Assembly: GCA_014695325.1 (NCBI GenBank)
Contig: JACJNZ010000039.1
Coordinates: forward strand, 992,001 to 1,056,000
Source: Cyanobacteria bacterium FACHB-502
GTDB lineage: Bacteria; Cyanobacteriota; Cyanobacteriia; Elainellales; Elainellaceae
Reading direction: 5' to 3'
Length of the DNA stretch: 64,000 nt
Shown here piece by piece: positions 34,431-53,644 of the stretch (position 1 is the first letter of the stretch; each line of letters begins with the position of its first letter). The position numbers were made by a program, and so were the translations under genes. A model generated the notes under the pieces. It was given only the letters and a program-made list of their open reading frames with translations, was not told the DNA's origin and made no database searches.

Positions 34431-34545
34431 AGGGGAGGGGTGGGGAGTGGAGGGATGAGGGAATGGGGTGGGAATGAGAGGCTAGGGGGCGATTTAGGGA
34501 ACGGTTTAGGGACACTTTAGGGGGCACTTTGGGGGCGATCGTTTC
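34431..34545 (+). repeat. Purine-skewed spacer tract before pixL
   Basis: The plus strand reads GGGGAGGGGTGGGGAGTGG, then GAGGGATGAGGGAATGGGG, followed by four variants of TTTAGGG(A/G)(G)C-type words (34492-34540). On the pixL coding strand this is a C/T-rich leader. Confidence 0.6.
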
Positions 34546-34621
34546 TCAAACCTCCTCTGGTCAATAATTTGGGGGTTGTAGGGTAAGCAGTGCCTACCCC
34601 ACAGATTCGCCAACAACAGGG

Positions 34622-37600
34622 TTACTCGACTTCAAATGCACCCACAGACGCCTGCAATTCCTGGGCGATCGTCACGGTTTCGCGGATCGCGTCGGAGACT
34701 TGAATTGAGGATTTTGAGGTCTGCTTGGAGACTTGTGCCACCTGTTCAATCAAGCGAGACACGGCAGAAGAGGTTTCTACCTGCGAAACGGTGGCTTCTG
34801 AGATCGACTGCACTAGATTGTCGATTTCGCGGGAAACTGCCAGAATTTGACCGAGGCTCTGCTTGGCGTTTTCGACCAGATGGGTTCCCTCGACCACCTG
34901 GGCGGTGCTTTGCTCCATGGCTTCCACCACCTGGCTAGTTTCGCGCTGAATGGTCGCGACGATTTTTTCAATCTCCTGGGTGGCGTTGGCAGAGCGGGCT
35001 GCCAGTTCTCCGACTTCTTCGGCAACCACGGCAAAGCCCTGTCCTTCTTCGCCTGCGCGGGCTGCTTCGATTCCGGCGTTGATGGCGAGCAGGTTGGTTT
35101 GCAGTGCGATCTGGTTAATCAGCGACACCACTTTGGAGATTTGCTGAGAGGATTCGCCCAGTCGCTTTACTTTCTTAGCGGTTTCGCCGATCGTCTCCCG
35201 CAGGCTGAGAATGTTTTGCACAGTCAGATCCATTGCGCTGCCGCTGGTTTCTGCGGTGCTGGAGGCGGTGCGGGCAACTTCGGCGGCTTGGCGGGCACTG
35301 GTTGCCACCTGACGAATCGAGACGGTCATTTGCTCAACCGATTGGATGATTTGCGTTGTTTCGTCTGCCTGCTTCAGGGCTTCTTCTGCCAGACGGCGAA
35401 CCGCGCCTTCGTTTTCACCCAGCGAACTGTTAACCTGCTCAACGGACTGTTTGACTTTAGTGACAATCTGCCGCAGGTTTTCCACGATCGAGTTAAAGAA
35501 GTCTGCAACCGTGCCAATTTCTCCCGCTGTGACGTTTGCCCGCACGGTCAGATTGCCTCTGGCGGCTCCTTCGACTTCGCTCAGCAGTTCGATGAGCTGC
35601 ATTTGCAGAGCTTCTTTCTGCCGCCGCTGCTCCTCGGAAAGCACTTCGGCTGCCTGACGGGCCTCTTCTTTTTGCTGGAACAGGTCTGCCTGCTCGAGCG
35701 CAAATCCCAGCTCTTTGCTGCTCTTCTTCATCAGCGTGATTTCGCTTTCCTTCCAGCAGCGCGGTTCGCTGCAATGATGGGCAATCAGCAATCCGATCAA
35801 TTCGTTTTTGATCAAAATGGGCGCGACCAGATTTGCCTTGACCTTAAACTGCTCAAGCTGCCCGATATGGCAAGGGGTAAGCCCAGCTTCATAGATATTA
35901 TTGGTTGCCTGAACCCGACCGAGTCGATATTTTTCCACGTAGCGATCGGCAAAGCAGGGGTCCGCAATCCGCGCCCCTAATGCAGGCGGAAATTCTCGCA
36001 CAACGGACTCTGCCACAAAGGTTCCTGCCCAGTTTGCATCAAACAAATACACGCCCACGCGATCGGCTTCCAGGGCTTCCCGCATTTCCCGGACGACGAC
36101 ATCGAAAATGTCTTGACGGTGAATAAACTGCCGCATTCGAGAAACGATCGTATTCACAAGCTGCTCTTGCTGAGCCGTTGTTTCCTGTTGTCGCAGCAGC
36201 ATTGCCTGAGTCAGGGCATAGCCAATTTGCGTCGTGATTTGCTGCATCAGATCAATGTCTCCTGGCTGCCACAGACGCGGACCCGAACACTGATGCACAC
36301 ACAGCAAGCCAACCAGAGTTTCCCCTGCCAGAACGGGCGCAACGAGATTTGCCTTGACTTCCAACCGCTCTAAAATTTCGCAGTGGCAGCGCGAGAGCTT
36401 TGTCTCGTCGACATTGTCCATTTGCGAAATCTTGCCTGTTTTGTATCGCTGCACCGTTCCGGGGGTTAGAGGGTCATAGATTTCCTGTCCCAGCGATTTG
36501 ATCCAGCGATCGCCTACGGATTCTGAGACGATTTTGCCGCTGGTCATGTCTTCGTTAAACCGATACATCACAATCCGATCGGCTTTGAGCAGCTCTCGAA
36601 TCGCGTCGAGCGGCGCAGACAAAATGTAATCAACATTAAGCGACTGACGAATCTGGGTGGTGATGCGGCTGAGCAACTGGATTCGCTCGGTCGTGTTTTG
36701 CTGATCGGTGTATTGCTGTTTGAGCAGCGATTCTGATGCGGTCACGCTATCTGCCAGCGTATTAAACGTCTGCATTAGTTGACCGACTTCATCGTTCGAT
36801 TCCACCCGGGCCCGTGCCGATCGATCGCCTGCCGCAAATCGCCGGGTGACTTCTCGCAGTGACTCGATCGGTCGAGCAATCGAGCGTCCAAGCAGCGTTC
36901 CCAGTGCCACATCTGCTGCAATTGCCACGACTGCCACCCCAAGCTGAAGCAGCAGAATTTGCCACAGCAATCGGTTCAACGCTGACTCAGACGTGCCGCG
37001 CACCAGAATCGCGATCGGTTCACCCTTAGGATTGGGTAACGCTTTTGCCGCAACGGTGTAGGTTTGTCCGTTGACCCGGATGCGATCGGTCACCGCCTCA
37101 CCGACAGTCTGTTTGGGTTGCAGGGCATCTGCAGCTCGCTGCAAAATTTGGGGATCTGAAAGCGGAACATTTGCCTGCGCTGCTTCGAGATCGGTTGAAT
37201 TGCCCAGATCAAGGCTGGTTGCCAGCTTAAATTCTCCGTTAGGCTGCCGCGCATAAACGGCACTATAGCCATTCTCAAAGGCAGCAATCGACTCTTCGAC
37301 GATCGGCTGTTTTACCACATCTCCGGCAACCAGTGCACCAATAGTCGTGTCTCGCTCCGGGTCACGCACAGGCGTCACCACATAGCGAATCAGCCTGTCC
37401 TGTTCTTTCAGCTCAGCCGGAAGCGGCGGATTCTCTTTCTTTAATTCTTCGGCACTGACCAACGCATTTGCGCTGACCTGACGCGGTGAAGCGAGAACCT
37501 GACTCACCAATCCCTGCGGGTCAAATTTTTCGCCCTGACGATCGGCATTTGCGCTGGCAATGATCCGTCCATCGATGCCAACCAGCGTCGCGTACTCAAT

Positions 37601-38131
37601 GTTGCGGGCTGCAATCTCATTGCTCAGAGTGCGCTTGAGTTCTTCTTCCTGTTCCCCAGAGAGCGATCGTCCGTTTACCCTGTCCCTCGCTGCATTAATA
37701 ATCAGCGGGTTGTCTGACTGCCCCCGAAACCCAAATCCCATTTGATTGGTTTTGACTTCGTAGGACAGCCGCTCGACCGTCGCCTCCGATTTTGCCTGGT
37801 TTGCGAGCTGAGCTCGTCCGCCTGCAATCAGCAGCAGCGCTCCCACTCCCACCAGCCCAAGCACTGCAATTAGCTCGGATGTCAGCAGTGCAAACCTCTG
37901 CTTGCGCCGCACGGGTAAATTGCGAAACCAATGATCCGCCTGAACCCGGTTCATCTCAAGCGGAAGACTGACCTGCGATCGCCCCGAATTCAACGATGGT
38001 AGTTTTCGGTTGGTTTCAGCAGAAACAGCAGGAACAGACTCAATTTCCGATGGCTCTGACCCGATCGGTTCCAGATCATCTTTGTCAGGCGGAAACTGTC
38101 CGTTGGAAAGGGGACGGGGCTGGATGGTCAT
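34622..38131 (-). CDS. pixJ: Phototaxis photoreceptor / methyl-accepting protein, PixJ type with DXCF cyanobacteriochrome GAF
   Basis: This 1169-residue membrane receptor has a disordered N-terminus, TM1 (about 84-105), an extracytoplasmic sensor region (106-388), TM2 (about 390-415), HAMP (about 416-468), GAF1 (about 490-645), GAF2 (about 660-815), a second HAMP-like segment (852-893) and an MCP signalling domain (about 900-1165; tip [17 protein letters not shown]). GAF2 has Cys726 in DPCF, the DXCF motif, and canonical Cys754 in TPCHIGQL, as in blue/green cyanobacteriochromes of PixJ. GAF1 also has a Cys-His (Cys582, SRCHCE), which is unusual. It should sense light direction and drive PixL. 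Confidence 0.95.
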
Positions 38132-38149
38132 GAGCGCGATACCTCAGGA

Positions 38150-38300
38150 ATGGAATGGGGAGAACAGAATAGAGAGAATGGGGAGATCAAGAGGTGGGCG
38201 ATCGGGGGATGGGCAGACGAGGGGAGACAGTAAAGGGGAAAACAGTGAATTAGGCGCGATCGATTTGGAGATTGGGAAATAAACGGAGAATAAACGGGAA
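38150..38300 (+). repeat. Purine-skewed spacer tract before pixJ
   Basis: The plus strand is strongly A/G-rich with words AATGGGGAGA, AGAGAATGGGGAGATCAAGA and ACGAGGGGAGACAG, then AATAAACGG(A/G)(G)A(A)-type duplications at 38278-38306. It lies in the 340-base gap between pixI and pixJ, with the CT-rich tract at the other end. Confidence 0.5.
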
Positions 38301-38397
38301 ATAAATTAGGAAACAGGAGCGAATTTATAAATCAGTGAACAGACTTTTAACAAACAGGCAACAACACTGACAGAAAATAACACCTATAAATGGCTCC

Positions 38398-38471
38398 TAA
38401 TGCCTTTCACCCCTTCACATCCCTAGCTCCCCATCTCCCCCATCTCCTCATCCCCTCACCCACTCATCCCT
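38398..38471 (+). repeat. Pyrimidine-skewed spacer tract after pixI
   Basis: The plus strand reads CCCCATCTCCCCCATCTCC then TCATCCCCTCACCCACTCAT; nearly identical words occur at 61610-61680. It is the same family as the purine tracts but in reverse orientation. Confidence 0.6.
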
Positions 38472-38981
38472 CTACGCCACCCGCAGCACAGACGCCTGCA
38501 CGATCGCCTCTGCCTCTAGCACTAGCAGCACTTCCTGTCGATCTGAAAGCTGCTGAAGGGCACAGCCGCGCAGGTAGGGAACAAGCGATGCGGCAATTTG
38601 CCCAAGGGGAGATTGAATTTGATCGGATTGCAGGCGAACTGATCCTTCGACCCGGTGAACTGCCACACCTAAGGGAATATTGCCGACCTGCAACAGGACG
38701 ATCGTGTATTGCTGAGTCGAAACATCCAGCAGGGAAACGCCGAGAAGCTGCGCCAGATCGATCGTCCAGCTAATTCGGCTGCGTCGATTGAGTAAGCCCA
38801 GCATTACCGGGTGCATATTAGGCATTGGAGTAAGCCGACGCGCAGGCAGCACCAAAGCTTCCTGGATCGACTGCATTGAAATGACGGCTGGAATTTCCGG
38901 GGTGAGCCAGAATTTGAGATAGGCATCGCCCGTTTGTTTTTGCGATCGACTTTCGGTCAGCGCAAGCTTTGCAATTTCCAT
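38472..38981 (-). CDS. pixI: CheW-like adaptor, PixI type
   Basis: This 169-residue protein has a CheW domain: YLKFWLTPEIPAVISMQSIQE, MHPVMLGLLNRRSRISWTIDLAQLLG, QYTIVLLQVGNIPLGVAVHRVEG and a C-terminal VLLVLEAEAIVQASVL. It couples the PixJ receptor to the PixL kinase. The gene lies between pixH and pixJ as in Synechocystis (pixG-H-I-J). No ribosome binding site is visible upstream of ATG 38981. A 256-base gap containing a dispersed repeat separates it from pixH. Confidence 0.88.
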   Translation of the reverse strand: MEIAKLALTESRSQKQTGDAYLKFWLTPEIPAVISMQSIQEALVLPARRLTPMPNMHPVMLGLLNRRSRISWTIDLAQLLGVSLLDVSTQQYTIVLLQVGNIPLGVAVHRVEGSVRLQSDQIQSPLGQIAASLVPYLRGCALQQLSDRQEVLLVLEAEAIVQASVLRVA

Positions 38982-39057
38982 GAGTGAAAAGAGCTGAAAA
39001 GGAAGGAGAAGAGAAACTGCGGAGAGATTGTTTGAGAAGTCTCAAAGGAACTACATC

Positions 39058-39119
39058 GCCCCCTAAATTCCCCAACTTTTGACTTGCCGCTCTAAAAGAG
39101 CGAGGGGGAACCTTGAGCC
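39058..39119. repeat. Dispersed hairpin repeat, copy A
   Basis: The sequence starts GCCCCCTAAATTCCCCAAC, continues TTTTGACTTGCCGCTCTAAA and ends GAGCGAGGGGGAACCTTGAG. An inner hairpin GCTCT/AGAGC is enclosed by a C-run and G-run pairing (TTCCCC / GGGGGAA). Copy B at 41581 is about 80 percent identical. It sits between pixH and pixI. Confidence 0.8.
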
Positions 39120-39237
39120 GCTAAACGTTCTGGTGGCAGGTGACAAATGCCTGGTGACAAATGAAAGCTTGCAAGGCTTGGTTCATCCAGAATTGACTCG
39201 TTAGGGAGGCGGTTCGGAAGATTACTCAAATAGCCGC

Positions 39238-39615
39238 TTAGCCAGAAACCGATTTAATTGCACGAATGAACTGTTCACGGGTAAAGGGTTTGGTGATGTA
39301 GGCATCTGCGCCTTGTTTCATGCCCCATAGCCGATCGATTTCCTGGTCTTTTGAGCTGCAAATCACGATCGGAACTCGTTCGGTGACAGGATGCTTTCGC
39401 AAGGTCCGGCAGAGTTCAAAGCCGCTCATTCCCGGCATCACCACATCGGTGACAATGACATCGGGCTTTTGTTCGATCGCTTTATCCAGAGCTTCTTTTG
39501 CGGTTCCTGCACCAATGACGGAATAGCCGCCTTCTCGCAGGTAATGGCTCATTAACTCCATTTCTGAATGAGTATCTTCAACGATTAGAATCGTTCCCAT
39601 GATCGTGTTATTCAT
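39238..39615 (-). CDS. pixH: CheY-like response regulator, PixH type
   Basis: This 125-residue single-domain receiver has ILIVEDTHSEMELMSHYL at the acidic pocket, the phospho-acceptor in VIVTDVVMPGMSGFELCRTL, then CSSK and ITKPFTREQF. It should receive phosphate from PixL and modulate pilus retraction or extension. ATG 39600 (MGTILIVEDT) is an alternative start five codons later. It follows pixG by 40 bases. Confidence 0.9.
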   Translation of the reverse strand: MNNTIMGTILIVEDTHSEMELMSHYLREGGYSVIGAGTAKEALDKAIEQKPDVIVTDVVMPGMSGFELCRTLRKHPVTERVPIVICSSKDQEIDRLWGMKQGADAYITKPFTREQFIRAIKSVSG

Positions 39616-39655
39616 GCGTTCTCAGATATGAATTTGTTGGATGGCAGTTCTGGCT

Positions 39656-40822
39656 TCAGGTCAGATGCTTAAACACCATCTTCATCAGGTCAGACTGAGT
39701 AAAGGGTTTCGTGAGATAGCCTGAAGCACCAACTAGACGAGCTTTGGCGCGATCGATAAATCCGGTATTACCCGTGACCATAATGATGGGCGTGGCTCGA
39801 AAGGTCGGATGCTTTCGCAACAGAGAACATAACTCATAGCCGTCTAAGCTAGGCATGGTTACGTCTAGCAAAATCAAATCCGGTTTACTGCGGATGATCT
39901 GCATCAGTGCCCGCACCGGATCACTAATCAACACAACAGAGAACATCTTGTCGTCCAGAAACGCATTAATTGCCTGAAGCACCGTGGGGCTATCGTCAAT
40001 GCAGGCAATCGTATAAGTCGTTTTGGCAGAGTTTGGGCGAGGCTGTGCTGCCCCGTAGTTTGGAGCGGGTAATCCGTTTGGCGCAATCTTTTGGGCAAAG
40101 GGCGATGACCCGTTGCGATCCAGCGGTGCAGCGGTGAGCGCCTCCGATCGCGGTTCGGGCTGCCTGGATTCAAGCGGTCTTGCCTCAGATTGTCTTGCCT
40201 CAGATTGTCTTGCCTCAGATTGTCTTGCCTCAGACGGTCTTGCCTCAGGCGATCGAGACGGTTCGCTAAACCGATTTTCAGCAGGAACCGATCGCGGCTT
40301 TTGCTGCTGCACCGATTCCACGATCGCTTTCAGATCGAGCTGGCAAAACTGCGGCAGTTGGGCAGGCAATTGATCGGCTTCGATGAGTTCATAGCTTCCA
40401 GTCTGCACTGCCAGCAAAGAATCAAGCACTTCTCGTGCCAGTCCCTCGATCAGCTCTGCGGCTTGTTCCGGCAGGAGAAACTGCTGTTCGATCAGCCAGG
40501 TAATTGCCTGATAGTCAGGGAGGACTTTCTCGTCTCGATCGCGCACAGACTCAAACAGTAGCCGCACTTGGACGCGAATAGCACTGACCAAACTGGGAAC
40601 CTTGAGACTGAGACGACGCAAATGGCGATCGAGACGGATAAACGGTTCGGCAGAGCTGGATGCGTAAACCAGTTTGCCCTGCTCTAAGTAGAGTGACCAG
40701 ATGGTGGAATTGCTCACAACTTGCAAACAGCCGCTTGCCTGACGGCTAATCATTTGAGCCAGGAGACTGAGTGGATGGAGCGTTTGGGGCGATCGATAGG
40801 TTCCCATACGGATGGTCTGCAT
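39656..40822 (-). CDS. pixG: PatA/PixG-type response regulator (PATAN domain plus receiver)
   Basis: This 388-residue protein has an N-terminal PATAN/DUF4388 domain (about 1-180; LAQMISRQASGCLQVVSNST ... ATWLIEQQFLLPEQAAELIE-type helices), a charged repetitive linker (about 185-260) and a receiver (about 265-388; IACIDDSPTVLQAINAFL, phospho-Asp in LILLDVTMPSLDGYELC, LTKPFTQSDL). PatA-type regulators act on pilus motors in phototaxis. The linker contains a perfect 15-base tandem repeat coding for S-E-A-R-Q. GGAG lies six bases before the ATG. It is the first gene of the operon. Confidence 0.92.
   Translation of the reverse strand: MQTIRMGTYRSPQTLHPLSLLAQMISRQASGCLQVVSNSTIWSLYLEQGKLVYASSSAEPFIRLDRHLRRLSLKVPSLVSAIRVQVRLLFESVRDRDEKVLPDYQAITWLIEQQFLLPEQAAELIEGLAREVLDSLLAVQTGSYELIEADQLPAQLPQFCQLDLKAIVESVQQQKPRSVPAENRFSEPSRSPEARPSEARQSEARQSEARQSEARPLESRQPEPRSEALTAAPLDRNGSSPFAQKIAPNGLPAPNYGAAQPRPNSAKTTYTIACIDDSPTVLQAINAFLDDKMFSVVLISDPVRALMQIIRSKPDLILLDVTMPSLDGYELCSLLRKHPTFRATPIIMVTGNTGFIDRAKARLVGASGYLTKPFTQSDLMKMVFKHLT
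40183..40242 (-). repeat. 15-bp tandem repeat inside pixG (SEARQ linker)
   Basis: CCTCAGATTGTCTTG occurs exactly three times at 40183, 40198 and 40213, with an imperfect fourth at 40228 (CCTCAGACGGTCTTG) and a partial fifth. It is in frame, adding five residues per copy to the PATAN-receiver linker. Confidence 0.95.
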
Positions 40823-41682: not shown

Positions 41683-44340
41683 CTAACTCAACAACCTTAA
41701 AATCCGCCGAATCTTCTCCCGTTGCTGGCGATCGAGCGACTCTGGGAAGGAAAGCTCCATAATAATGTGCTGCGAGGCAACAGCGACGGCTTGCTGTCCT
41801 TCGGAATGAATTGTTTCGGGGTCAGGGAGCAGGCTGGGCAGCACTTCGATACTTTGCACCTGTGCCAGCACGGTTTGCGGCAGCGGGTCGTATCCTTCGC
41901 GGCTGATCATAAGCGAGAGAATTGGCTGCTCAGTGCCAAGGGTTTCCAGTTTGGGCAGGGTGCGATCGACAAACTCAAGCCGCAGATCGCGTGTGCCGAT
42001 TTCGGTTACTTTTGCCGTATAAATTTCATCTTCCCAGCCTTCCCAGAAAATTTGCGCCCAGCCGCGCACCTGTTTTCGCACTTTCATGCCCACTTCGGGC
42101 TTCAGATCGCGAAAGGCACGGATAAGACTGGTGGCAATGAACTTGAGCGATTGAATCGGTTTATCAATTTGCGATCGCTGCTGCGAATACCATTCCCGCA
42201 CGTCGGCATATAGGACGATCGTGAGATCATCTTGCTGCTCCCGGGTGGGGCTGACAAAATCAACGGACAGCAGAGTTTGCAGAGCATCGGTCGCAATACC
42301 GCGCACAATTCTGGCATCGAGCAGTGCCCTTGCACCGTAGTCGCCGATCAGTTCGACGCGCACCTCGTCCGAGACGTTGGGCCACTCATCAAGCAGGATT
42401 TGTGCGCCCGTTTCGCTGACGTTGGTGGTTCTGCCAATCCATCGCTGTCCGTCGCTGTGAATAATCGCGATCAGGCGGCGGGGCATCCGGTGGGAACGGC
42501 GAAGCTGGGGTTGCTCAAAGGCGGCAATGCAGGCAGCCATCACCAGCAGCAGGTTAAACAGACACCAGAGCGAGTTGATCAGCACTGCCTGGGTTTCCTG
42601 CGGACTGAGGATCAGCCAGAAGGGGATCGCCAGCAGCGAAGCTCCGGTAATTCCGCCCAGCATTACCAGATAGCGGATCGAATCGAGGTCAAAGCTCCGC
42701 TCGTTGACGGTTAATCCTTTGCTAGTAACGTTAAAGCTGCCCAGCTTGGGATTGATTAATGCCAGCAGCGTCACAATACCTGCCTGAAACGACATGGCAA
42801 ACTCGTAGATCTCATTCCAGAAGGAAAAGCGAACGTGCTTATAGGGAATGTGATTTGTTTGCATTGACAAAATAATATGCGGCAGCGCGTACGCCAGCGT
42901 TTCCAGCCCCAGTCCTTTTACCGAGTTGATGCCAAACAGCAAAAAGAACGTGGGAGCGATCGCATACATCACCCTGGGAAAGCCAAAAAAGAAGTGCATT
43001 GTCGCGCTGAAATAGCAAAGTCGCTGCGACATTCTGAGTTTGAGTTTGCGGTTGAACAAAGGATTTTCGAGCCGCAAGATTTGCGCCATGCCCCGCGCCC
43101 AGCGCACCTGCTGTCCCACAAACGAGGAAAAGGTTTCAGGAGCCAGCCCTGCGACCATAATCTTGTCGTAGTAAACGCTCTTATAGCCGATCGAATGCAG
43201 CCGCAGTGAAGTGTGGCAGTCTTCAGTAACAGTCTCGGTGGCAATGCCGCCCACTTCCAAAATCGCTTCCCGCCGAATCACAGCTGCCGAGCCGCAAAAG
43301 AAAGCTGCATTCCAGAAATCGTTACCTTTTTGCAGCACTTTATAAAACAGCTCGTTGCCCACGGGAACCTGACCGTTCGTGTACAGATTGCGCTCAAACG
43401 GATCGGGGTTATAAAACCAGTGCGGCGTTTGCACCAGGGCAACCTGCGGATCAAAAAAGAAGCCGACTGTTTTCTGTAAAAAACCGCGAATCGGGATGTG
43501 ATCGCAGTCGAGAATCATGACCAGATCGCCTTTTGTTCTGTGCAGTGCCGTGTTGATGTTTCCGGCTTTGGCGTGATCGTTGTTGTCGCGAGTGAGCATT
43601 GTGCAGCCCAGTTCCTCGCACATTTGCTGCAGTTCTGCCCGTCGCTGCCGAAACTTTTCTGCTCGTCCGTCATCCAAAACGTACACTCGCTTTTTATCGG
43701 CGGGGTAATCGACCCCTAATGCCGCTAAAGCTGTTTTCCGCACGATCTCCACATCTTCGTTGTAAGTGGGAATGTAGATATCAACGGTAAACCATTCTTC
43801 TTGCGGAAAGAGGGAGAGATCGATCGGTTTACGATCGCGAATTTTCAGCGTTTGGAAATAGGCAAGAAACAGCGTCAGAATGCCGTATAGCTCGGCGGCA
43901 AACAGCAGCAGCGAGAATACCGTATCGACCCAGGAGTCGAAGTTGAGCGTATAGCTGACTCGGTAATAAAAATACCGCAGCGTGGTCAGAATGCTCAGCA
44001 GCATCAGCAGCAGGTGCAGCGCGTCGTCTGATTTGCTTTTCGGACGTTCTGCCAGATAAAGAAACCAGCGTCCCACTGTGACCACACAAGCTCCTAACAA
44101 AGCCTGCTGCCAGAAGTTAGGGCGAATGGTAATAAACGGCATGAAAAACAGAATCAGACAAATCAGCAGCAGCACCAACTGCGATCGACCGAGCCATTTC
44201 AACACGCTGTTTACCGAATCCGGCAGCCGATCGACCAGCAGCGTCGTAAACCGATCATTGACTTGCTCCAGTTGCCGATCAGCGCGACGAGAAGCCTCCG
44301 CATTCCTGAACTTATGTTTGGGTTTCATCCAGCGAATCAT
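41683..44340 (-). CDS. bcsA: Cellulose synthase catalytic subunit with PilZ domain
   Basis: This 885-residue membrane GT2 enzyme polymerises UDP-glucose into beta-1,4-glucan. N-terminal helices are followed by the glycosyltransferase domain with DDG (223-225), DCD (278-280), FFCGS (347-351), TED (372-374) and QQVRW (410-414). C-terminal helices and a PilZ domain with RRSHR (614-618) and NVSETG (640-645) come next, the residues that bind cyclic di-GMP. About 180 residues follow PilZ, longer than minimal BcsA. It starts three bases after bcsB. Activation by cyclic di-GMP is expected from the family. Confidence 0.94.
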   Translation of the reverse strand: MIRWMKPKHKFRNAEASRRADRQLEQVNDRFTTLLVDRLPDSVNSVLKWLGRSQLVLLLICLILFFMPFITIRPNFWQQALLGACVVTVGRWFLYLAERPKSKSDDALHLLLMLLSILTTLRYFYYRVSYTLNFDSWVDTVFSLLLFAAELYGILTLFLAYFQTLKIRDRKPIDLSLFPQEEWFTVDIYIPTYNEDVEIVRKTALAALGVDYPADKKRVYVLDDGRAEKFRQRRAELQQMCEELGCTMLTRDNNDHAKAGNINTALHRTKGDLVMILDCDHIPIRGFLQKTVGFFFDPQVALVQTPHWFYNPDPFERNLYTNGQVPVGNELFYKVLQKGNDFWNAAFFCGSAAVIRREAILEVGGIATETVTEDCHTSLRLHSIGYKSVYYDKIMVAGLAPETFSSFVGQQVRWARGMAQILRLENPLFNRKLKLRMSQRLCYFSATMHFFFGFPRVMYAIAPTFFLLFGINSVKGLGLETLAYALPHIILSMQTNHIPYKHVRFSFWNEIYEFAMSFQAGIVTLLALINPKLGSFNVTSKGLTVNERSFDLDSIRYLVMLGGITGASLLAIPFWLILSPQETQAVLINSLWCLFNLLLVMAACIAAFEQPQLRRSHRMPRRLIAIIHSDGQRWIGRTTNVSETGAQILLDEWPNVSDEVRVELIGDYGARALLDARIVRGIATDALQTLLSVDFVSPTREQQDDLTIVLYADVREWYSQQRSQIDKPIQSLKFIATSLIRAFRDLKPEVGMKVRKQVRGWAQIFWEGWEDEIYTAKVTEIGTRDLRLEFVDRTLPKLETLGTEQPILSLMISREGYDPLPQTVLAQVQSIEVLPSLLPDPETIHSEGQQAVAVASQHIIMELSFPESLDRQQREKIRRILRLLS

Positions 44341-44343
44341 GCG

Positions 44344-46782
44344 TTAACGCTCCTGCCCGATTACTTTCTTGAGATAAACCTGCGTCACCGCATACAGAAT
44401 CAGCGTAGCTGCTACAAACCCCGGAGCCAGCACATACCAGTTGCTCTGAAACACCTTGAACCACTCCTGCCAGCCGCCCTCGGTAATGATTTCGCGCTGT
44501 GGAGACTGCCGCAAGAACTCCAGTCGATAATCCGACGGATCAAAGGGTGAAGGGTTCTCGGTATTCCTGCTGATCAGCACCGTGTCGCCTTCGATCTGGC
44601 TAAACAGAAAATCGCGCTGCATCACCGACTGCACCTGCTGAAGCCCAGTGTCTGTTTGTCCGGTGAGAGCCACCACGACGCGCTCTGAGTTCCAGGGCGA
44701 CAAAATCGATCGAATCAATCCTTCGGCATCGGGGGCGGTCTGCGTTTGATTGCCTGCCCACTGGCGCGTCAACTGTCCTTGCAGCGCAAAGCCCTGAGAC
44801 TGGAACACCTCCGGTAAGGGAAACCGTGCCTGGGTTCCGATGCCAATCAAGTGACGATCGCGCTGGATCTCCTTGGGCAATTGGGTTTTACGGTACACCT
44901 GAAACTGAATTGCATCGGCACGGGTGAGCCGTCCCAGACGTTCGCTGGTTTCCAGCAGCAGATCCAGATCTTTTTGGTTCGGCTGTTCGGGCAGGACGAT
45001 CGCCAGCTTTGACATATCCTGCGGAGCCGCAAACGGATATCCCGACTGCATTAGCTTCAGATCAGGCAGGCGCGTCACATTTTCCCGCCGCAAATCAAAC
45101 GACGTATCGCTGTGAATTGTGCCCCAGAGCTGCTGATCCGTTACCCGACTGCACGATCGCCGCTCACGCGGATCGAGCCGGAAGTTGACCTGCATTTTCG
45201 AGGTGGGTTTCACCGAGCCTTCGGGCAGATCAATTTTCAGGATTTGGCGATTTGCCCCGTCTACCGAAGTGAGTCGATCGCCGCCCAAGGGCACTCCGTC
45301 GAGCTGCACTTCCACCTGTGACGTCAGCGGGTTCACCTGCGGACCATAGCTATACACCAGCGTCATGCTGCTGCCTGTGAGAATCTGCTCGTCCGGCAGG
45401 GCGCGGAAGTCAAACTCTAACGCCGGGGCATGGGAGCCGCGCACCGTCACATCAGCGTAGGGCTGATCGTTATAGGTGCGAAGATCGCTCAGCTTGAACT
45501 GCTCTTGAGTCGGCAAATAGCCCTGCCATTCCCGCAACGGTGGAGCCGCGATCGACTGAGTTTCCTCAATCAGCATGACGCTGCCTGTCGCAATGGCGCG
45601 ATCGGGACGCTGCACCAATGCCTGCACAGCCTTCGCTACACCCACATCACCGTTTCCAGTTGCCACCAGCACGGGCACGCGATCACTATCGGTGGTCGTC
45701 AGCATCAGCACCCCCACATCCGGCGGCAGCACCTTGCCCTGAGCATCCCGAAGCTGATTTTGCTGAATCGCCAGCGGCAAATCCAGATCGGCGATCGCAG
45801 GCTGGCTTTCCGGTGTGCCAATCACGATCAGCCGCTCGTTTTTCTTAATCTGATCGATCGCCTCGATCGTGCGGCTATCTACTTCTCGATAACGGGCATA
45901 TTGTCCGATCGCGGTCTGAAGCCGAGCCGTGGGAGTGAGCCAGCTTTCGTCGATCGTTCTGGGCAACAAAAAGGCAATTTGCGGCGCATCCAGACTCAGA
46001 ACATCCAGGAACGGATAGGGATAACGGCTGAAATTGAGCGGAACCGACTGCGGATCGACGGCAAAGACCAGCTTGGAGTCGGGCAAAATTTCTGTCCACA
46101 GTGACGGATCGTAGGGGTCTTGGGTACAGGTGGGCGAATTGTTTTGCAGCGCAGCGATCGTCACCTCGTTATAGTCTTGCAGCAGGCTCACGGGCACGTT
46201 AAACAGACTGGTGGTAATCTTGTTTTCCGGCTGATTCAGCGGCACACTGCCCACACTGGTTCCGTTGACCAATACCGTGAGATTCGATCGCGTCGCATAC
46301 AGGGCGGGCGAATGACGATAGCGCAATTGCAGCTTCACGCTTTTCGTTTCCCAATCACGCGGACGGGTAAAACGCAGCCTTGCCTCGCTGTAAATGCTTT
46401 CTAACCGCAGCCGATTGCCCACGATCGGACTCCGGCTAAACTCCAGCACGTATTCGCTCAAATCCGCAGGGGCGACGATCGGATCAGGAGCATTCTTGGG
46501 CAGCGCAAAGGCGGAAGATTTTACAGGTTGGCTAGCAGGCGCGTTGCCAGACGGTGCAGGGGATTTTGTTTCGGTTGCCGTCGCAGTCAAACTGAGAACA
46601 CTCAGCGTCAAACTACAGCTAAACAGACCGACATAAAGGAGCGATCGTCGCCAGAAACGCTTCAGGAAATGTTTTGGAAGATGGATGAATGAATGCGATC
46701 GATGATGAGCCGAAGATGCAGAGGATGCACAAGACTCGATGCAGTTTCCCTGGTGGGGTAGACGGTGACGGAAATCTCTCAT
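44344..46782 (-). CDS. bcsB: Cellulose synthase regulatory/periplasmic subunit BcsB
   Basis: This 812-residue protein has a basic N-terminus and hydrophobic signal/anchor (about 46-70), then a large exported domain and one C-terminal membrane helix (about 785-805, NWYVLAPGFVAATLILYAV). It matches the BcsB layout: paired carbohydrate-binding and flavodoxin-like halves (LRLESIYSEARLRFTRPRDW; LQLRYRHSPALYATRSNLTV; DVGVAKAVQALVQRP). It guides the glucan from BcsA through the periplasm and is needed for BcsA activity. The N-terminal 40 residues before the anchor are unusually polar, so the true start may be later. A decamer repeat lies in its leader. Confidence 0.88.
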   Translation of the reverse strand: MRDFRHRLPHQGNCIESCASSASSAHHRSHSFIHLPKHFLKRFWRRSLLYVGLFSCSLTLSVLSLTATATETKSPAPSGNAPASQPVKSSAFALPKNAPDPIVAPADLSEYVLEFSRSPIVGNRLRLESIYSEARLRFTRPRDWETKSVKLQLRYRHSPALYATRSNLTVLVNGTSVGSVPLNQPENKITTSLFNVPVSLLQDYNEVTIAALQNNSPTCTQDPYDPSLWTEILPDSKLVFAVDPQSVPLNFSRYPYPFLDVLSLDAPQIAFLLPRTIDESWLTPTARLQTAIGQYARYREVDSRTIEAIDQIKKNERLIVIGTPESQPAIADLDLPLAIQQNQLRDAQGKVLPPDVGVLMLTTTDSDRVPVLVATGNGDVGVAKAVQALVQRPDRAIATGSVMLIEETQSIAAPPLREWQGYLPTQEQFKLSDLRTYNDQPYADVTVRGSHAPALEFDFRALPDEQILTGSSMTLVYSYGPQVNPLTSQVEVQLDGVPLGGDRLTSVDGANRQILKIDLPEGSVKPTSKMQVNFRLDPRERRSCSRVTDQQLWGTIHSDTSFDLRRENVTRLPDLKLMQSGYPFAAPQDMSKLAIVLPEQPNQKDLDLLLETSERLGRLTRADAIQFQVYRKTQLPKEIQRDRHLIGIGTQARFPLPEVFQSQGFALQGQLTRQWAGNQTQTAPDAEGLIRSILSPWNSERVVVALTGQTDTGLQQVQSVMQRDFLFSQIEGDTVLISRNTENPSPFDPSDYRLEFLRQSPQREIITEGGWQEWFKVFQSNWYVLAPGFVAATLILYAVTQVYLKKVIGQER

Positions 46783-46817
46783 GATGGGAGAAGGAAATCA
46801 GTAAAGGAAAGACGGAC

Positions 46818-46876
46818 AAGAAACACGCACAGAAAACACAAGAAACACATAGGAAACACACAAAACACGCAAAACC
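46818..46876. repeat. Decamer repeat in the bcsB leader
   Basis: In exact 10-base register from 46821: AAACACGCAC, AGAAAACACA, AGAAACACAT, AGGAAACACA, CAAAACACGC. On the coding strand this is a GT-rich segment ending about 38 bases before the bcsB start. Confidence 0.75.
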
Positions 46877-46897
46877 AAATCAGAGGGGCATCAGCCG

Positions 46898-49240
46898 CTA
46901 ATATCGCTCCCAGCTCGGCTGAAATCCGCGTCGCCGCAGCAAATCAACTTGAAGCTGATCCAGGCGTTGCGAAGCACTTCCCCGTTGGGGATAATCCTCG
47001 ATCGGTGAATCGGTTGCTTCATCGGACTGATTCATTTCGCGAAGCTGATTCAGGGCAGAAACGGGCCGATCTTGCGCCAAACTCAATTCCGCCAGTAGGC
47101 GACGAACCTCTGGATCGTTGGGTCTGAGGGCAAGGACGCGATCGAATAAAGTTTGGGCTTCGCCAAGCTGTCGCTGTTCAAACCGCACACCCCCCAGAGC
47201 CAGCAGCGCGTCGGGGTTGTTAGGCTGTTGGGTCACAATCGTTTCGTATGCCCGTCCTGCCTGGTTCAAGTTGCCAAGCTGCTGTGCCAGTTCGCCCTGC
47301 AAAAAGTAAAGGTTAATATCGTTGGGATTCGCGGCAAGTAGTTCATTGACTCTGGCAGTGGCGCGATCGGCATCCCGGTTTGCCCAGAGCTGTACCCAGC
47401 GGCGATTAATGCCCTGATTATTCGGATCGATCGTTAGCAGCTCGTCGTATAGCGGTTCGCGATCGGCTTCTGCAGGCAGCGTACTCACCAGCATGAATAG
47501 CTCTGGCGGAACCTGGGTCGATTGCGCGGCAGACCATTGATTTAAAACCGCTTCGGCATCGGCTTTGGAAATTTGCTTCAGCGAATAGGCAATGCTGGCG
47601 CGTCCAAGTTGGCTAGTCAGGTCATCGGGATTTCGGGCAAGGAGCTGATCGTAAATTTTCAGCGCGTCTTCCGATCGCCCCTGCATTAGCCGCACCCCTG
47701 CTAAACCACGCATCGCATCTTCATAGATTTTGAGCTGGAGCGGTTGTGCTTCGGTAGTAGCAATCAGCTTGCCATAGCGGTTCGCGCTGCCGTCCAGGTT
47801 GCCTTCCTGTCGCTCCAGTTCTGCCAGCAGCAGTTCCACACCCAAATCTGCCTCGCCTTTTGGCGTTGCCCGATAGTCTGCCACCGCCGATCGCGTTCCG
47901 TCGAAATTCCCTTGCTCTAGCGCAATCTGCGCCAAGCGGAAATAGAGAAACGGTACGTTCCCCGCCACATCCCGCAGCGATTGATAAATGGGCAGCAGCA
48001 CCGGAGCGGGAGGAGTGAGTCGATTTAGCCCGATTGCAATGGCGTGACGTTCGACCGTCGAAGTGGGAAGCGTTGTGAGAATCGTTTGCAGCTTTTGTTC
48101 AAGCTGAGTACGCGAAATCTGGCGCAAATCATAGGCAGCAATTTCTCGCTTCACCTGCAAGCTCACTCGCTGGGGCTGCTGGGCAATCAGGCGATCGTAC
48201 AGAGCGATTCCCTCCGCTAAGGCAAGCTGCGACTCGCTCATCACATCGGCGACTTCCAGCAACAGTCCAGGTGCAGGATTCGTCGTTTCGCTGAGTGCCC
48301 GCCGATACAGGGCAACGGCTGCCTCGTAGGGTTCTGCATCTGCCACCGTTCGTCCGATCGCACTCAAAGCTCTGGCAAGGGGTAATCGGGCAGCTTTTTG
48401 GTCGCGCAGCGGTTCCAGTACGCCAAATGCCTGCTCCATCTGCTGATTCATCGCATAAGACACTGCCAGAGCCGATCGCATTTCCATTGCCGCTTGATCC
48501 AGTGATCGAATTGACCTGAGCCGAGCTTCAAGAACTTGGAGCGCCTGAGGCACTTCTCCGGTTGCCTGAAGCGTTTGGGCGTAGGCAGCGATCGCTTGAT
48601 TTGGAACGGTTGCCCCACTTGCCAGATAGCGATCGAACAAGCTGCGCCCGGTGGTGTAATTGCCGCTGTAGGTATAAATTTGCGCTGCTTGCAAAACGGT
48701 TTCCGGCTGCACGGATTCTGCCAGCAAAATTTCATAGTCGCCGATCGCCGCTTCAAACTGTCCCTGATAGCCATACAGCAAGGCACGTTGCGCCCGGCGG
48801 GAACGATCGTTTGGATTCAGGTTGAGCAGCGTCGTCAGGGCATTAATGCCAGCCTGGTTCCACTCTGAACGATAGCTCCCCAGCAAGCCGATCGCTGCTA
48901 GTGCCTGCCCATTATTGGGGTCTTGCTGAATCACCTGCTGATAGGCGTTCCAGGCGTTGCTGTCTTGTCCGGCACGTTGGTAGGCAATGGCTAAGCCCAA
49001 GCGAGCTTCCAGCGATCGAGGATTGCGCTGAAGTGCCTGCCGAAAGGCGGTAATAGCATCGTTCACCCAGCCGCGATCGAGCAGCACATAGCCCTGACGA
49101 GTCACCGGATCAGCCGATTGTGCCAGAGCAGGCAGCGTAACGGTGAACGGGAAAATCAAAGCAGGCAGAATGCCCAGCAGCCAGATCAGACGAATATTGC
49201 TGAATTTATTGCTGAATTGATGCTTCACCGATCGCTTCAT
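46898..49240 (-). CDS. TPR-repeat periplasmic protein (BcsC N-terminal-like scaffold)
   Basis: This 780-residue protein has a signal peptide (about 1-41, LPALIFPFTVTLPALAQS) followed by continuous tetratricopeptide repeats (AITAFRQALQRNPRSLEARL, AWNAYQQVIQQDPNNGQALA, GRAYETIVTQQPNNPDALLA, AQTLFDRVLALRPNDPEVRR). It has no beta-barrel. In enterobacteria BcsC joins such TPRs to an outer-membrane barrel in one chain; here the barrel seems to be the upstream gene, overlapping by four bases (ATGA). It should bridge the peptidoglycan space and guide cellulose to the exit pore. The chain ends in a short basic tail (LRRRGFQPSWERY). Confidence 0.85.
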   Translation of the reverse strand: MKRSVKHQFSNKFSNIRLIWLLGILPALIFPFTVTLPALAQSADPVTRQGYVLLDRGWVNDAITAFRQALQRNPRSLEARLGLAIAYQRAGQDSNAWNAYQQVIQQDPNNGQALAAIGLLGSYRSEWNQAGINALTTLLNLNPNDRSRRAQRALLYGYQGQFEAAIGDYEILLAESVQPETVLQAAQIYTYSGNYTTGRSLFDRYLASGATVPNQAIAAYAQTLQATGEVPQALQVLEARLRSIRSLDQAAMEMRSALAVSYAMNQQMEQAFGVLEPLRDQKAARLPLARALSAIGRTVADAEPYEAAVALYRRALSETTNPAPGLLLEVADVMSESQLALAEGIALYDRLIAQQPQRVSLQVKREIAAYDLRQISRTQLEQKLQTILTTLPTSTVERHAIAIGLNRLTPPAPVLLPIYQSLRDVAGNVPFLYFRLAQIALEQGNFDGTRSAVADYRATPKGEADLGVELLLAELERQEGNLDGSANRYGKLIATTEAQPLQLKIYEDAMRGLAGVRLMQGRSEDALKIYDQLLARNPDDLTSQLGRASIAYSLKQISKADAEAVLNQWSAAQSTQVPPELFMLVSTLPAEADREPLYDELLTIDPNNQGINRRWVQLWANRDADRATARVNELLAANPNDINLYFLQGELAQQLGNLNQAGRAYETIVTQQPNNPDALLALGGVRFEQRQLGEAQTLFDRVLALRPNDPEVRRLLAELSLAQDRPVSALNQLREMNQSDEATDSPIEDYPQRGSASQRLDQLQVDLLRRRGFQPSWERY

Positions 49241-51012
49241 TGAAAAGCCCTCCCCAGATCGCTCAGCGTGAAGTCTGCCCGCACCCGAAATCCCAGAATT
49301 GTTTCTGAGAAACTATTCCTGGCTTGTGCAGTAAATCCGGCACGTAAATAAGGCAGTAGCCGCGCATCGTAAAATAGCTCCACCACGTCAGGCAGGTCGT
49401 CGTTCCGCCGTTTCCGCAGTCCCTCGTTGGAAAGATCACGTCCATAAGCCAGACCGAGGCGATCGTCTGGCAAAAACAAATCAAGCAAATTAAACCCAAA
49501 GCTGTAGGTTTCGCCGCCGCGCTCCAGATCGAGGTTGTCATACCAGCCGTATCGGGCAAATAGCCCTAAGCGAATCGACGGCACAAAATACTCGGCGTTG
49601 ATGCCGTATGCCTGCTCTCGATCGCCCGATCGCAATCCAAAGTCATTGTCGCCGCGATCGAACTGAAAAATTTCGCGAAAGCCGCTATCGTCTCCGGCAT
49701 CTTCCGCCGTTAAATAAGTGCCGCGCAAAATCAAGTTTTGAATCCGCACCGCTGCCTCAGCTGCAAAGCCATCGAGCGCAAAATCTCCCAGATCGCGACG
49801 CGAAGAAAATCCGGCAGCGCGAAGCTCCAAGTGATCGGTCACAGTCCAATTCACCAACACCCCTGGACGCGACGACAATCCTGCGGCTGCCAGAGCGGGA
49901 TTCGTTTGAAAAATCGGATTAAAAAACTGCGTGACGCCATCTTTCGCAAAGCTGTTGCGATCGAAATAGGAAGTGTAATCGAGCAAGCCAACCGCAAACC
50001 GCAGCGTCGGGATTTCGCTGGGCGACACCGCAACATACAGTTCATTCAAATTCAGCCCGGATTCTGGCGAATCGGTAAAAGTGTCCCCCGTCACCAGATC
50101 CACCGTTCCCCCTACCAGCAGATTAGGCGTAATAGCATAGCTTGCCGTGGTTCTTGCCCGTGCCGAGAATTCATCGCCCTGAACCACGATCGCTCCCTGA
50201 AGCTGAACAAACGGCGCGCCTAACAAAGCACTGCCGCCCTGAGCAATTGACTCGCCATCCGCAGGGGAAAGGTTTGGGTCGCTGTACTGAGCTTCCGTAT
50301 TAGATTGAGCGATATTAGCTTGAGCGATCGAGATCGTATCCGGTTGATTCGCGGTTTCTGTCTCTGCCGTAATTCTCTCTTCGTTCAACCTAGATAGATC
50401 TGAATCGGATTGATCTGGCTCCGATCGATTCAAACTTAATTCTTCGAATTCATCGATCGCTTCATTGCCAAATTCATTACCTTTTTCTTCATAACTAACC
50501 AAATTAGCATCAAGGTATATTCCTAACGGATCGATCGCAGAATACTCTCCAGCATCATTACTATGATTTATGGACTGATTTACAGCTTCGTTCAATAATT
50601 CTAAAGCGTCTGATTCAGTCACTTCTGCAATTTCACTCAACTGATCATTGGCATTATTCACAGGTTGAGCATTCGCAGCCGGAAGATTTAATTGGACGAT
50701 CGCAGTTTGAGCATTCGCGTTCTGAACATTCCAAGCATTCTGAGCATTAATAATCTGGGCATTTGCATTCTGGGCATTTGCATTCTGGGCATTCACAGCT
50801 TGGGCATTCGCAGTCTGGGAGACTACGGCCTCTAGTCCGAGCAGAGCCAGAGTACTCAGGGCAGTGATGCCTGTCCAAAACACTGGATGCCAGCCACCTG
50901 CCAATGGAATGACTTGATGTGCAGCCTGACGGGAACCATCAACCCTCGCTTTTAAGAAGTGAGTTGGATTGGAATCAGAAGATAAAGTCATGATTTTCAA
51001 CAAAACGTTCAT
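49237..51012 (-). CDS. Predicted outer-membrane beta-barrel protein, likely cellulose exit pore
   Basis: This 591-residue protein has an N-terminal hydrophobic segment (about 44-66), then an Asn-Ala-Gln repeat region (67-120), an acidic linker (120-265) and a C-terminal domain of alternating short amphipathic strands (VQLQGAIVVQGDEFSARARTT, LRFAVGLLDYTSYFDRNSF, VLVNWTVTDHLELRAAGFSS, IRLGLFARYGWYDNLDLERG). The strand pattern indicates a barrel of about 14-16 strands. It is the first gene of the bcs operon. Role inferred from position; a general porin is the alternative. The start is uncertain (ATG 51012 or 50991). Confidence 0.72.
   Translation of the reverse strand: MNVLLKIMTLSSDSNPTHFLKARVDGSRQAAHQVIPLAGGWHPVFWTGITALSTLALLGLEAVVSQTANAQAVNAQNANAQNANAQIINAQNAWNVQNANAQTAIVQLNLPAANAQPVNNANDQLSEIAEVTESDALELLNEAVNQSINHSNDAGEYSAIDPLGIYLDANLVSYEEKGNEFGNEAIDEFEELSLNRSEPDQSDSDLSRLNEERITAETETANQPDTISIAQANIAQSNTEAQYSDPNLSPADGESIAQGGSALLGAPFVQLQGAIVVQGDEFSARARTTASYAITPNLLVGGTVDLVTGDTFTDSPESGLNLNELYVAVSPSEIPTLRFAVGLLDYTSYFDRNSFAKDGVTQFFNPIFQTNPALAAAGLSSRPGVLVNWTVTDHLELRAAGFSSRRDLGDFALDGFAAEAAVRIQNLILRGTYLTAEDAGDDSGFREIFQFDRGDNDFGLRSGDREQAYGINAEYFVPSIRLGLFARYGWYDNLDLERGGETYSFGFNLLDLFLPDDRLGLAYGRDLSNEGLRKRRNDDLPDVVELFYDARLLPYLRAGFTAQARNSFSETILGFRVRADFTLSDLGRAFQ
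50653..50814 (-). repeat. Asn-Ala-Gln-coding low-complexity repeat
   Basis: The plus strand repeats (T)TCTGGGCATTTGCA-like 15-base words between 50745 and 50814, coding N-A-Q-N-A units right after the export signal of the barrel protein. A weaker copy continues to 50653. Confidence 0.8.
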
Positions 51013-52845: not shown

Positions 52846-53535
52846 TTAAACCTGCCCCTGACACTGCTGCCAGAGCCGATCGATCGTCACAAACTGATAG
52901 CCGCGATCAAGCAGTTGCGGAATGAAATAATCCACAGTGGCGGCTGCATCTTCTCCACCTGTATAGCCATCGTGCAGCACAATCACAGACCCATTGCGGC
53001 TCTGGGTTAAAACTCGCTGAGCAGCGATCGACACTCCGGGTCTTGTCCAATCTTCGGGAACCACGCTCCACATCACCGGGCGATAGTTCCACTGCTGCAA
53101 CGCGCTTAAGATTTTAGGCGTGAACACTCCATTCGGCGGGCGTACATCGCGAATTTGGGCAGTGGCGCTCGGATCAAGCCCACAAGTTTCGCCGATGATT
53201 TGCTGAGTGCAATCGAGCGACTGCTTGAGCTGAGGCAGCCTCATTTGGGTAAACATCGTATGATCGTAGCCGTGAATTGCTACCCCGTGTCCCGCTTGCC
53301 AAACAGTTCGCGCCACTTCAGGAAACCGCTCGACCAGCAGCCCCAGCCAAAAGAAGCTCGCTTTGATCTGATAGCGATCGAGCACTTCCAGCACTTGAAG
53401 CGTATGTTGTGGGTGAGGACCATCATCAAACGTGAGAGCAATCCAGGGCGAATCGGTGCTGCCCTGCCACAAACAGGCGGGAAAAGCAGGGTACAAAACT
53501 TTGTGCAGGATGGGATAAAGCGGAGCGAACTGCAT
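52846..53535 (-). CDS. Polysaccharide deacetylase family protein (NodB domain)
   Basis: This 229-residue protein (a TTG start at 53556 would add seven residues) has the NodB motifs: TFDDGPHP (motif 1, Asp base and metal ligand), HGYDHTMF (motif 2, metal histidines), RPPNGVF (motif 3), DWTRPG (motif 4) and VIVLHDG (motif 5). Members remove acetyl groups from N-acetylated sugars of peptidoglycan or exopolysaccharide. The N-terminus (FAPLYPILHKVLYPAFPACLW) is only mildly hydrophobic, so export is uncertain. No ribosome binding site is evident. Confidence 0.9.
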   Translation of the reverse strand: MQFAPLYPILHKVLYPAFPACLWQGSTDSPWIALTFDDGPHPQHTLQVLEVLDRYQIKASFFWLGLLVERFPEVARTVWQAGHGVAIHGYDHTMFTQMRLPQLKQSLDCTQQIIGETCGLDPSATAQIRDVRPPNGVFTPKILSALQQWNYRPVMWSVVPEDWTRPGVSIAAQRVLTQSRNGSVIVLHDGYTGGEDAAATVDYFIPQLLDRGYQFVTIDRLWQQCQGQV

Positions 53536-53644
53536 AACTGAAGCGGTATGAATCAAATTTTGGTGGCAGAACGACTGAAACTGCCTTGCTTCTTTTCATC
53601 CTAACGAATTCAGCCTAACGAATTTAGCAATTTACCTACTACCC

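Follow-up and report, generated by a model that had tools for sequence, protein, structure and literature searches.

A cyanobacterial Bcs cellulose operon in which a separate OprB-family barrel and a TPR protein probably do the work of BcsC

The cellulose operon considered here lies on the minus strand at positions 41683–51012 of the window, that is, the whole analysed stretch of 64,000 nt from contig JACJNZ010000039.1 of Cyanobacteria bacterium FACHB-502. It is considered, with good though not full confidence, to encode a cyanobacterial Bcs system where the work of BcsC is done by two separate proteins, an OprB-family outer-membrane barrel and a tetratricopeptide repeat (TPR) protein. Gene content and order, co-occurrence across the phylum, the predicted fold of the barrel and the conservation of a C-terminal tail in the TPR protein are provided directly by the analysis, and the reading is built on them.

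The operon is transcribed in the order barrel, TPR, bcsB, bcsA. The list of open reading frames (ORFs) confirms by coordinates what the preliminary description had noted, namely four consecutive minus-strand genes in this order with a 4-base overlap between the first two and a 3-base gap between the last two. The overlap (49237–49240) is an ATGA shared by the barrel stop and the TPR start, the gap between bcsB and bcsA occupies 44341–44343, and TPR and bcsB are separated by 115 bases. The bcsA product exceeds the cut-off of the NCBIfam equivalog-domain model TIGR03030 (CelA; 724.5 bits against 699.1) and carries the PilZ domain PF07238 (E 6.1e-11, 43 bits against 22.5), and the bcsB product matches PF03170 with an E-value of 8.1e-99 (332 bits, cut-off 21). 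A PilZ-type BcsA synthase over the cut-off and a BcsB gene adjoining bcsA mark a BcsA–BcsB system, and both are present here. The 780-aa protein matches TPR families of many kinds in Pfam and NCBIfam. A gene for a glycoside hydrolase family 8 (GH8) cellulase is absent from the operon of the window.

The gene order was followed in named genomes by a search with the barrel alignment, from which the best 80 of 198 relatives, all titled cyanobacteria, were taken as loci; they were chosen by the barrel alone, and their ORFs were called mechanically with the longest starts. Nostoc sp. 106C and strains of Calothrix and Leptolyngbya are among these relatives. A TPR gene follows the barrel gene on the same strand in all 77 loci with at least 1100 bases of room, being the next ORF in 76, and the 4-base overlap recurs in 34 of these 76. 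A fused barrel–TPR ORF was found in none of the 80 loci. Further downstream, bcsB and bcsA lie on the same strand in 55 of the 59 loci with at least 8500 bases. Barrel–TPR pairs without bcsB or bcsA in about 10 kb downstream were seen three times in Moorena (L108, L110, L111) and once in Symplocastrum (L145), and these four lone pairs are as expected if barrel and TPR form one unit.

The commonest order is barrel-TPR-GH8-bcsB-bcsA, the mirror image of the proteobacterial bcsA-bcsB-bcsZ-bcsC; the middle gene, of about 430 aa, belongs to Glyco_hydro_8 in three tested examples (E 2e-43 to 4e-42). Barrel, TPR and bcsB are all labelled in 64 loci; GH8 is present in 44 of them and absent, as in the window, from 20. 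A division into two clean clades with and without GH8 was considered and rejected, as the two kinds of loci do not form separate groups in a BcsB tree; the operon seems to have lost GH8 repeatedly. Within a cellulose operon of reversed order, the barrel gene and a free-standing TPR gene are genetically linked, and the suggestion of a distinct cyanobacterial layout is upheld, as a widespread one, both by the synteny of the 80 loci and by a search across the phylum.

The latter search covered 386 genomes drawn evenly from the phylum, including classes other than that of the window. The barrel query matches 18 of them, 16 with an E-value under 1e-100 across about 330 C-terminal residues and the remaining two weakly, over 59 and 83 residues only. 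Full-length BcsB (E below 1e-80) is encoded in 17 genomes, namely all 16 barrel genomes and one of another class (G343), with weak partial matches in five further genomes, and GH8 cellulase in 19, again all 16 barrel genomes and three of the other 370. The 16 barrel genomes are related and do not represent independent events; by database labels, they span seven families and fifteen genera. In G343, two bcsB-like genes stand in a row (L077:9194-13935, contig C1), without a barrel of the cellulose-operon kind.

For residues 240–591 of the barrel protein, AlphaFold2 with a 58-sequence alignment predicts a barrel of 16 strands (mean predicted local distance difference test score, pLDDT, 86.3; predicted template modelling score, pTM, 0.84). 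By sequence, the 591-aa protein gives nothing over the cut-off in Pfam or NCBIfam and nothing in PHROGs or the PDB sequences at E up to 1, once a ferritin at E 0.8 in the latter is set aside as a chance match. Structural relatives were ranked with Foldseek and a second aligner, and the 50 best matches were listed. Among the solved folds listed by the second aligner, the OprB porin of Pseudomonas putida comes first (4gey; Z 26.9, root-mean-square deviation 3.2, 303 residues), the next matches standing at 23.2; by the E-value of Foldseek, OprB comes second behind an Omp-Pst1 porin, with OprB having the higher TM-score of the two. BcsC is absent among these 50 matches, which excludes nothing. The OprB family PF04966 is matched by 42 of the 58 barrel relatives at E up to 0.1 (best 1.7e-13), one of them (L057) reaching 43.2 bits against a cut-off of 22.9. 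The barrel protein of the window itself has no PF04966 match, nor does it match BCSC_C (PF05420) in a Pfam scan at E up to 1. Since the barrel is OprB-like and lacks a BCSC_C match, the BcsC barrel seems to be replaced here by a porin, and we infer that a carbohydrate porin has been recruited for the purpose. In the genome of the window (hereafter, own genome), the barrel profile finds only the window gene at E up to 10 and the OprB family model picks another gene, so that the two belong to distinct subfamilies.

The loop after strand 5 of the barrel shows a mean column information of 3.88 over the 58 sequences versus 2.40–3.83 elsewhere, strand 13 being the nearest. In porins, the corresponding loop is extracellular and folds into the pore as a constriction. 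The conserved loop is thus probably a constriction loop, for which a substrate-facing role is plausible. As for the N-terminal part, the Asn-Ala-Gln-rich and acidic linker emphasized in the preliminary description is visible in the window protein but is not conserved: the linkers of 18 relatives are mostly Pro-, Ala- or Ser-rich, with net charges from -29 to +57 and variable length.

The TPR protein, encoded next to the barrel, was regarded as full-length above 680 aa and 300 bits, as it is in 70 loci; in the other 10 of the 80, the TPR ORF is truncated, interrupted or absent. A model of the protein from one relative (L119) contains 41 helices by count, which corresponds to about 20 TPRs. A signal-like N-terminus is visible in the TPR proteins, with an A-x-A-Q-like cleavage pattern in 40 of the 70, and a simple pattern search finds a lipobox-like motif in one of the 70. 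All 70 bear RG[F/L]QPxW at the C-terminus, followed by E in 69 and by D in one (L164), and most tails read RGFQPxWERY. In an earlier set of 21 TPR proteins, the tail was found in 20, with I or Y replacing F in two; the exception is a second copy in the own genome (L054), which has no barrel gene beside it. At the DNA level, 15 of the 386 genomes contain a pattern for RGFQPxW[D/E], 17 times in all, and each of these 17 sites falls where a TPR gene next to a barrel gene ends; the reversed control pattern has no match in the same 386 genomes. G167, the sixteenth barrel genome, was missed by the pattern because Gln follows the tail Trp there. Because a covalent link between the solenoid and the barrel is missing, something must hold both together, and the tail is the best candidate for this coupling.

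The exceptional TPR copy belongs to a second bcs cluster of the own genome (L054:5538-14635, contig C55) with the order TPR-GH8-bcsB-bcsA and no barrel gene. Barrel remnants were found neither beside this operon (best E 0.13) nor beside the barrel-less L055 operon of another genome (best E 9.3), and the barrel of the window may serve the second cluster as well. A further GH8 gene lies on the contig of the window about 640 kb away; the operon of the window probably borrows a GH8 encoded elsewhere in the genome. A fused BcsC elsewhere in the own genome, which would have spoken against the proposed layout, is not indicated, as the BCSC_C search of this genome gave no match. In the 386 genomes, BCSC_C gave eight weak or partial matches, two of which pass the cut-off (in G101 and in G263, of another class), and none of the 16 barrel genomes has one over the cut-off. 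Short BCSC_C-like matches lie in frames of 376–466 aa in genomes of the same class as the window (L083, L086–L089); four of the five genomes have no BcsB match, and the fifth is the barrel genome G338. These frames of about 400 aa possibly correspond to the 'BcsC' proteins of PMC4365693 (here and below, papers are cited for what their accessible parts state).

One more gene accompanies the operon. It encodes a family of about 260 aa in which a Cys at a lipobox-like position is invariant in all 40 rows of an alignment chosen from 70 related ORFs. Of the 67 loci with at least 1500 bases of upstream sequence, 52 carry the gene ahead of the barrel gene and divergent to it, at a distance of up to 1.1 kb in 51 and of 5.3 kb in the other; in one further locus, it is found elsewhere, and in 14, as in the window, it is locally absent. 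A single copy is present in the own genome; it shares the contig of the operon, at a distance of about 150 kb. All 15 other barrel genomes have the family, which is missing from each of 45 barrel-less genomes of the same class. These 45 were taken from the top of the list of such genomes, and one of them, G105, had the weak 83-residue barrel match mentioned above. The query alignment contained rows from 13 of the 15 and also a Moorena row close to G360; free of circularity are the own genome, G167 and the 45 negatives. No convincing relationship to a known family emerges, as the E-values stay at or above 0.013 against Pfam and 0.0025 against NCBIfam. The lipoprotein-like protein is likely a further, sixth part of the system, located at the outer membrane.

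On this basis, the following mechanism may be proposed. BcsA with its PilZ domain would make the glucan and push the chain across the inner membrane together with BcsB, a step taken from homology and established for the family. The periplasmic solenoid of about 20 TPRs would receive the chain and carry it to the outer membrane, like the 19 TPRs of BcsC, where the separate 16-stranded OprB-family barrel would form the exit for cellulose. This route, from BcsB along the groove of the TPRs and out through the barrel, is drawn by analogy with the solved system of E. coli (PMC11379886). The conserved tail (RGFQPxWERY in most proteins) would, by hypothesis, let the solenoid dock onto either the barrel or the lipoprotein. 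The GH8 cellulase, BcsZ-like and encoded elsewhere in the own genome, would trim stray chains, and the lipoprotein-like protein, likewise encoded elsewhere in that genome, would act at the outer membrane. We thereby infer the passage of cellulose through the barrel, a physical contact between the barrel and the TPR protein, and the roles of the tail, the cellulase and the lipoprotein. A more ambitious version, to which somewhat less than an even chance is given, is that cyanobacteria have an envelope-spanning machine of their own with six parts (BcsA, BcsB, GH8, the TPR protein, the OprB-type barrel and the new lipoprotein), in which RGFQPxWERY acts as a plug coupling the solenoid either to the barrel or to a lipoprotein collar, of the kind that PelC provides for PelB. 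If this is true, the TPR tail links two separate proteins in the way that a peptide bond links the corresponding parts of BcsC.

Several observations weigh against these proposals. The barrel belongs to a porin family of small-sugar uptake, the known OprB members taking up small sugars, and glucan passage through such a pore is an assumption; cellulose production by the carrier organisms is likewise presumed. The TPR profile, run against the PDB sequences at E up to 1e-10, retrieved 42 sequences with generic TPR proteins first and none named BcsC; it did not single out BcsC, so that the TPR protein may or may not derive from BcsC. The evidence from barrel-less clusters is mixed: L054 lost the TPR tail, but L055 keeps it without a nearby barrel, so that barrel loss and tail loss coincide in one of two cases. 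Structure prediction for the 591-aa protein, advised at the outset both alone and with the TPR protein, succeeded for the former, giving the 16-stranded barrel. A joined barrel–TPR model, made from the L119 genes with the stop read as Gln, is confident within both domains (pLDDT 90.9) but has a pTM of 0.61 and no confident arrangement; its last 14 residues scored 76 and 53 by block, leaving tail docking unsupported. In a structure search with the joined model, OprB was again first and BcsC was outside the 50 best matches, which excludes nothing. Finally, a BCSC_C-like match that stays under the cut-off occurs in one barrel genome, G338, at a place distant from the operon.

The porin affinity leads to another explanation, according to which the barrel is an ordinary OprB-type sugar porin, for example one retaking cello-oligosaccharides from GH8, and cellulose exits via a TolC-like channel, as in the XcsAB-TolC model proposed for other cyanobacteria (PMC12430437). 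The barrel does fall in the OprB fold family, and that family is wide; the related worry of a general porin widespread without bcsA/bcsB is justified to this extent, but the subfamily found here is strong only together with full-length BcsB, in 16 of 16 genomes. Moreover, it is tied to a TPR gene in all 77 loci with room, even where bcsB and bcsA are not nearby, and the absence of BCSC_C over the cut-off from the 16 barrel genomes also speaks against a mere sugar porin, an explanation we therefore regard as unlikely. The preliminary description had spoken of a BcsC split into two genes. Separate barrel and stand-alone TPR genes are indeed what is seen, and the equality of components, about 20 versus 19 repeats and 16 strands as in BcsC (PMC11379886), would fit a fused ancestor that broke, with a barrel that then diverged beyond BCSC_C and converged on OprB scores. 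Such a history is very improbable in our opinion: the barrel gene precedes the TPR gene, opposite to the domain order of BcsC, no fused form exists in the 80 loci, and 42 of the 58 relatives have OprB sequence affinity. BcsC was probably not split, as the barrel is OprB-like and lacks BCSC_C, and the preferred reading remains that of a separate OprB-family barrel and a TPR protein doing the work of BcsC.

The BcsC of E. coli, with 19 TPRs and a 16-stranded barrel, binds BcsB through its first TPR, and the activity of BcsZ is critical for cellulose secretion in this bacterium (PMC11379886). The system described here shares with BcsC of E. coli and Komagataeibacter a TPR solenoid of similar repeat number and a 16-stranded barrel (PMC11379886), as well as co-location with bcsA and bcsB in one operon, to which most relatives add a GH8 cellulase gene. 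However, BcsC is one chain with the TPRs before the barrel, whereas here there are two genes, barrel first, in mirrored gene order; BcsC has a BCSC_C barrel, and here an OprB-like barrel is combined with a conserved TPR tail and a co-occurring lipoprotein-like family. The AlgK and AlgE proteins of Pseudomonas alginate secretion are similar in that a separate TPR protein and a separate outer-membrane porin serve a synthase-dependent polysaccharide, but AlgK is itself a lipoprotein (PMC9734138), unlike the TPR proteins here, with their single lipobox-like motif in 70. Besides, the polymer of AlgK/AlgE is alginate, not cellulose. The AlgE barrel has 18 strands. PelB and PelC resemble the system in having a 16-stranded barrel with TPRs and a separate outer-membrane lipoprotein; PelB is, however, one chain, and PelC, a 12-member ring under the PelB barrel (PMC12141448), is likened here to the lipoprotein-like protein by analogy only. 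To the OprB porins, the barrel is linked by its best fold match and by the sequence matches of most family members, but it differs from them in being tied to cellulose operons and a TPR gene, in its long variable N-terminal linker, and in having one long loop as its most conserved part. The XcsAB-TolC model for Thermosynechococcus likewise concerns a cyanobacterial PilZ-type cellulose synthase, but with an HlyD-like protein instead of BcsB and with genes not in one operon (PMC12430437).

The positions of the features are collected in Table 1.

Table 1. Features of the cellulose operon in the window and of the lipoprotein-like family
Feature	Position	Strand	Evidence
Barrel gene, 591 aa, first of the operon	49237-51012	-	ORF, relatives, AlphaFold2 model
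Signal-like N-terminus and Asn-Ala-Gln-rich linker of the barrel protein, aa 1-262	50227-51012	-	Sequence
Predicted 16-stranded OprB-like outer-membrane barrel domain, aa 263-591	49240-50226	-	Model, fold and family matches
Long loop after strand 5, aa 346-380, best conserved barrel segment	49873-49977	-	Column information
Stand-alone TPR protein, 780 aa, probably periplasmic	46898-49240	-	ORF, TPR matches in Pfam
C-terminal tail of the TPR protein, RRGFQPSWERY, family signature	46901-46933	-	Conserved in relatives
bcsB, periplasmic co-catalytic subunit, 812 aa	44344-46782	-	PF03170
bcsA, cellulose synthase with PilZ domain, 885 aa	41683-44340	-	TIGR03030, PF07238
Lipoprotein-like family, example with 69 related ORFs	L061:4961-5776		
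Lipoprotein-like family, copy of the own genome, outside the window	G000:C34:882012-882749		

The minus-strand genes adjoining bcsA (31149–40822) presumably form a chemotaxis or phototaxis cluster, with CheW-like and CheY-like proteins and a methyl-accepting protein with GAF-like repeats. Upstream of the operon, at 52846–53556 on the minus strand, lies a gene for what we take to be a polysaccharide-deacetylase-like protein with an FDDGPH motif.

According to a 2025 review, cellulose secretion in cyanobacteria is poorly defined, with type IV operons without bcsB and an XcsAB-TolC model that has not been validated experimentally (PMC12430437). A survey of the phylum reports, in its accessible part, BcsB in very few strains and the BcsC_C domain in none of the cyanobacteria analysed (PMC4594306), and in the accessible text of a classification of cellulose operons, the word 'cyanobacteria' occurs once, in a reference (PMC7112194). 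BcsC-like barrels have been named in five cyanobacteria, with a role in heterocysts suggested (PMC4365693), and an acidobacterial bcsC in two fragments was deemed a pseudogene in its genome record (PMC9693552). No earlier description of the barrel–TPR arrangement was found in the open-licence literature, subscription papers being mostly outside this scope and the tail and the lipoprotein not having been searched by sequence.

The finding thus names a likely missing exporter for the BcsAB-type cellulose systems of cyanobacteria, present in many of them, and the tail of the TPR protein offers a simple signature for finding it. A further case is the system designated 'Rs', which we take to be that of Rhodobacter sphaeroides. 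A porin with a scaffold may help to explain cellulose producers without an identified BcsC, such as this one (PMC11379886). More generally, the cyanobacterial operon suggests that a general porin combined with a scaffold can make up a rebuilt polysaccharide exporter.

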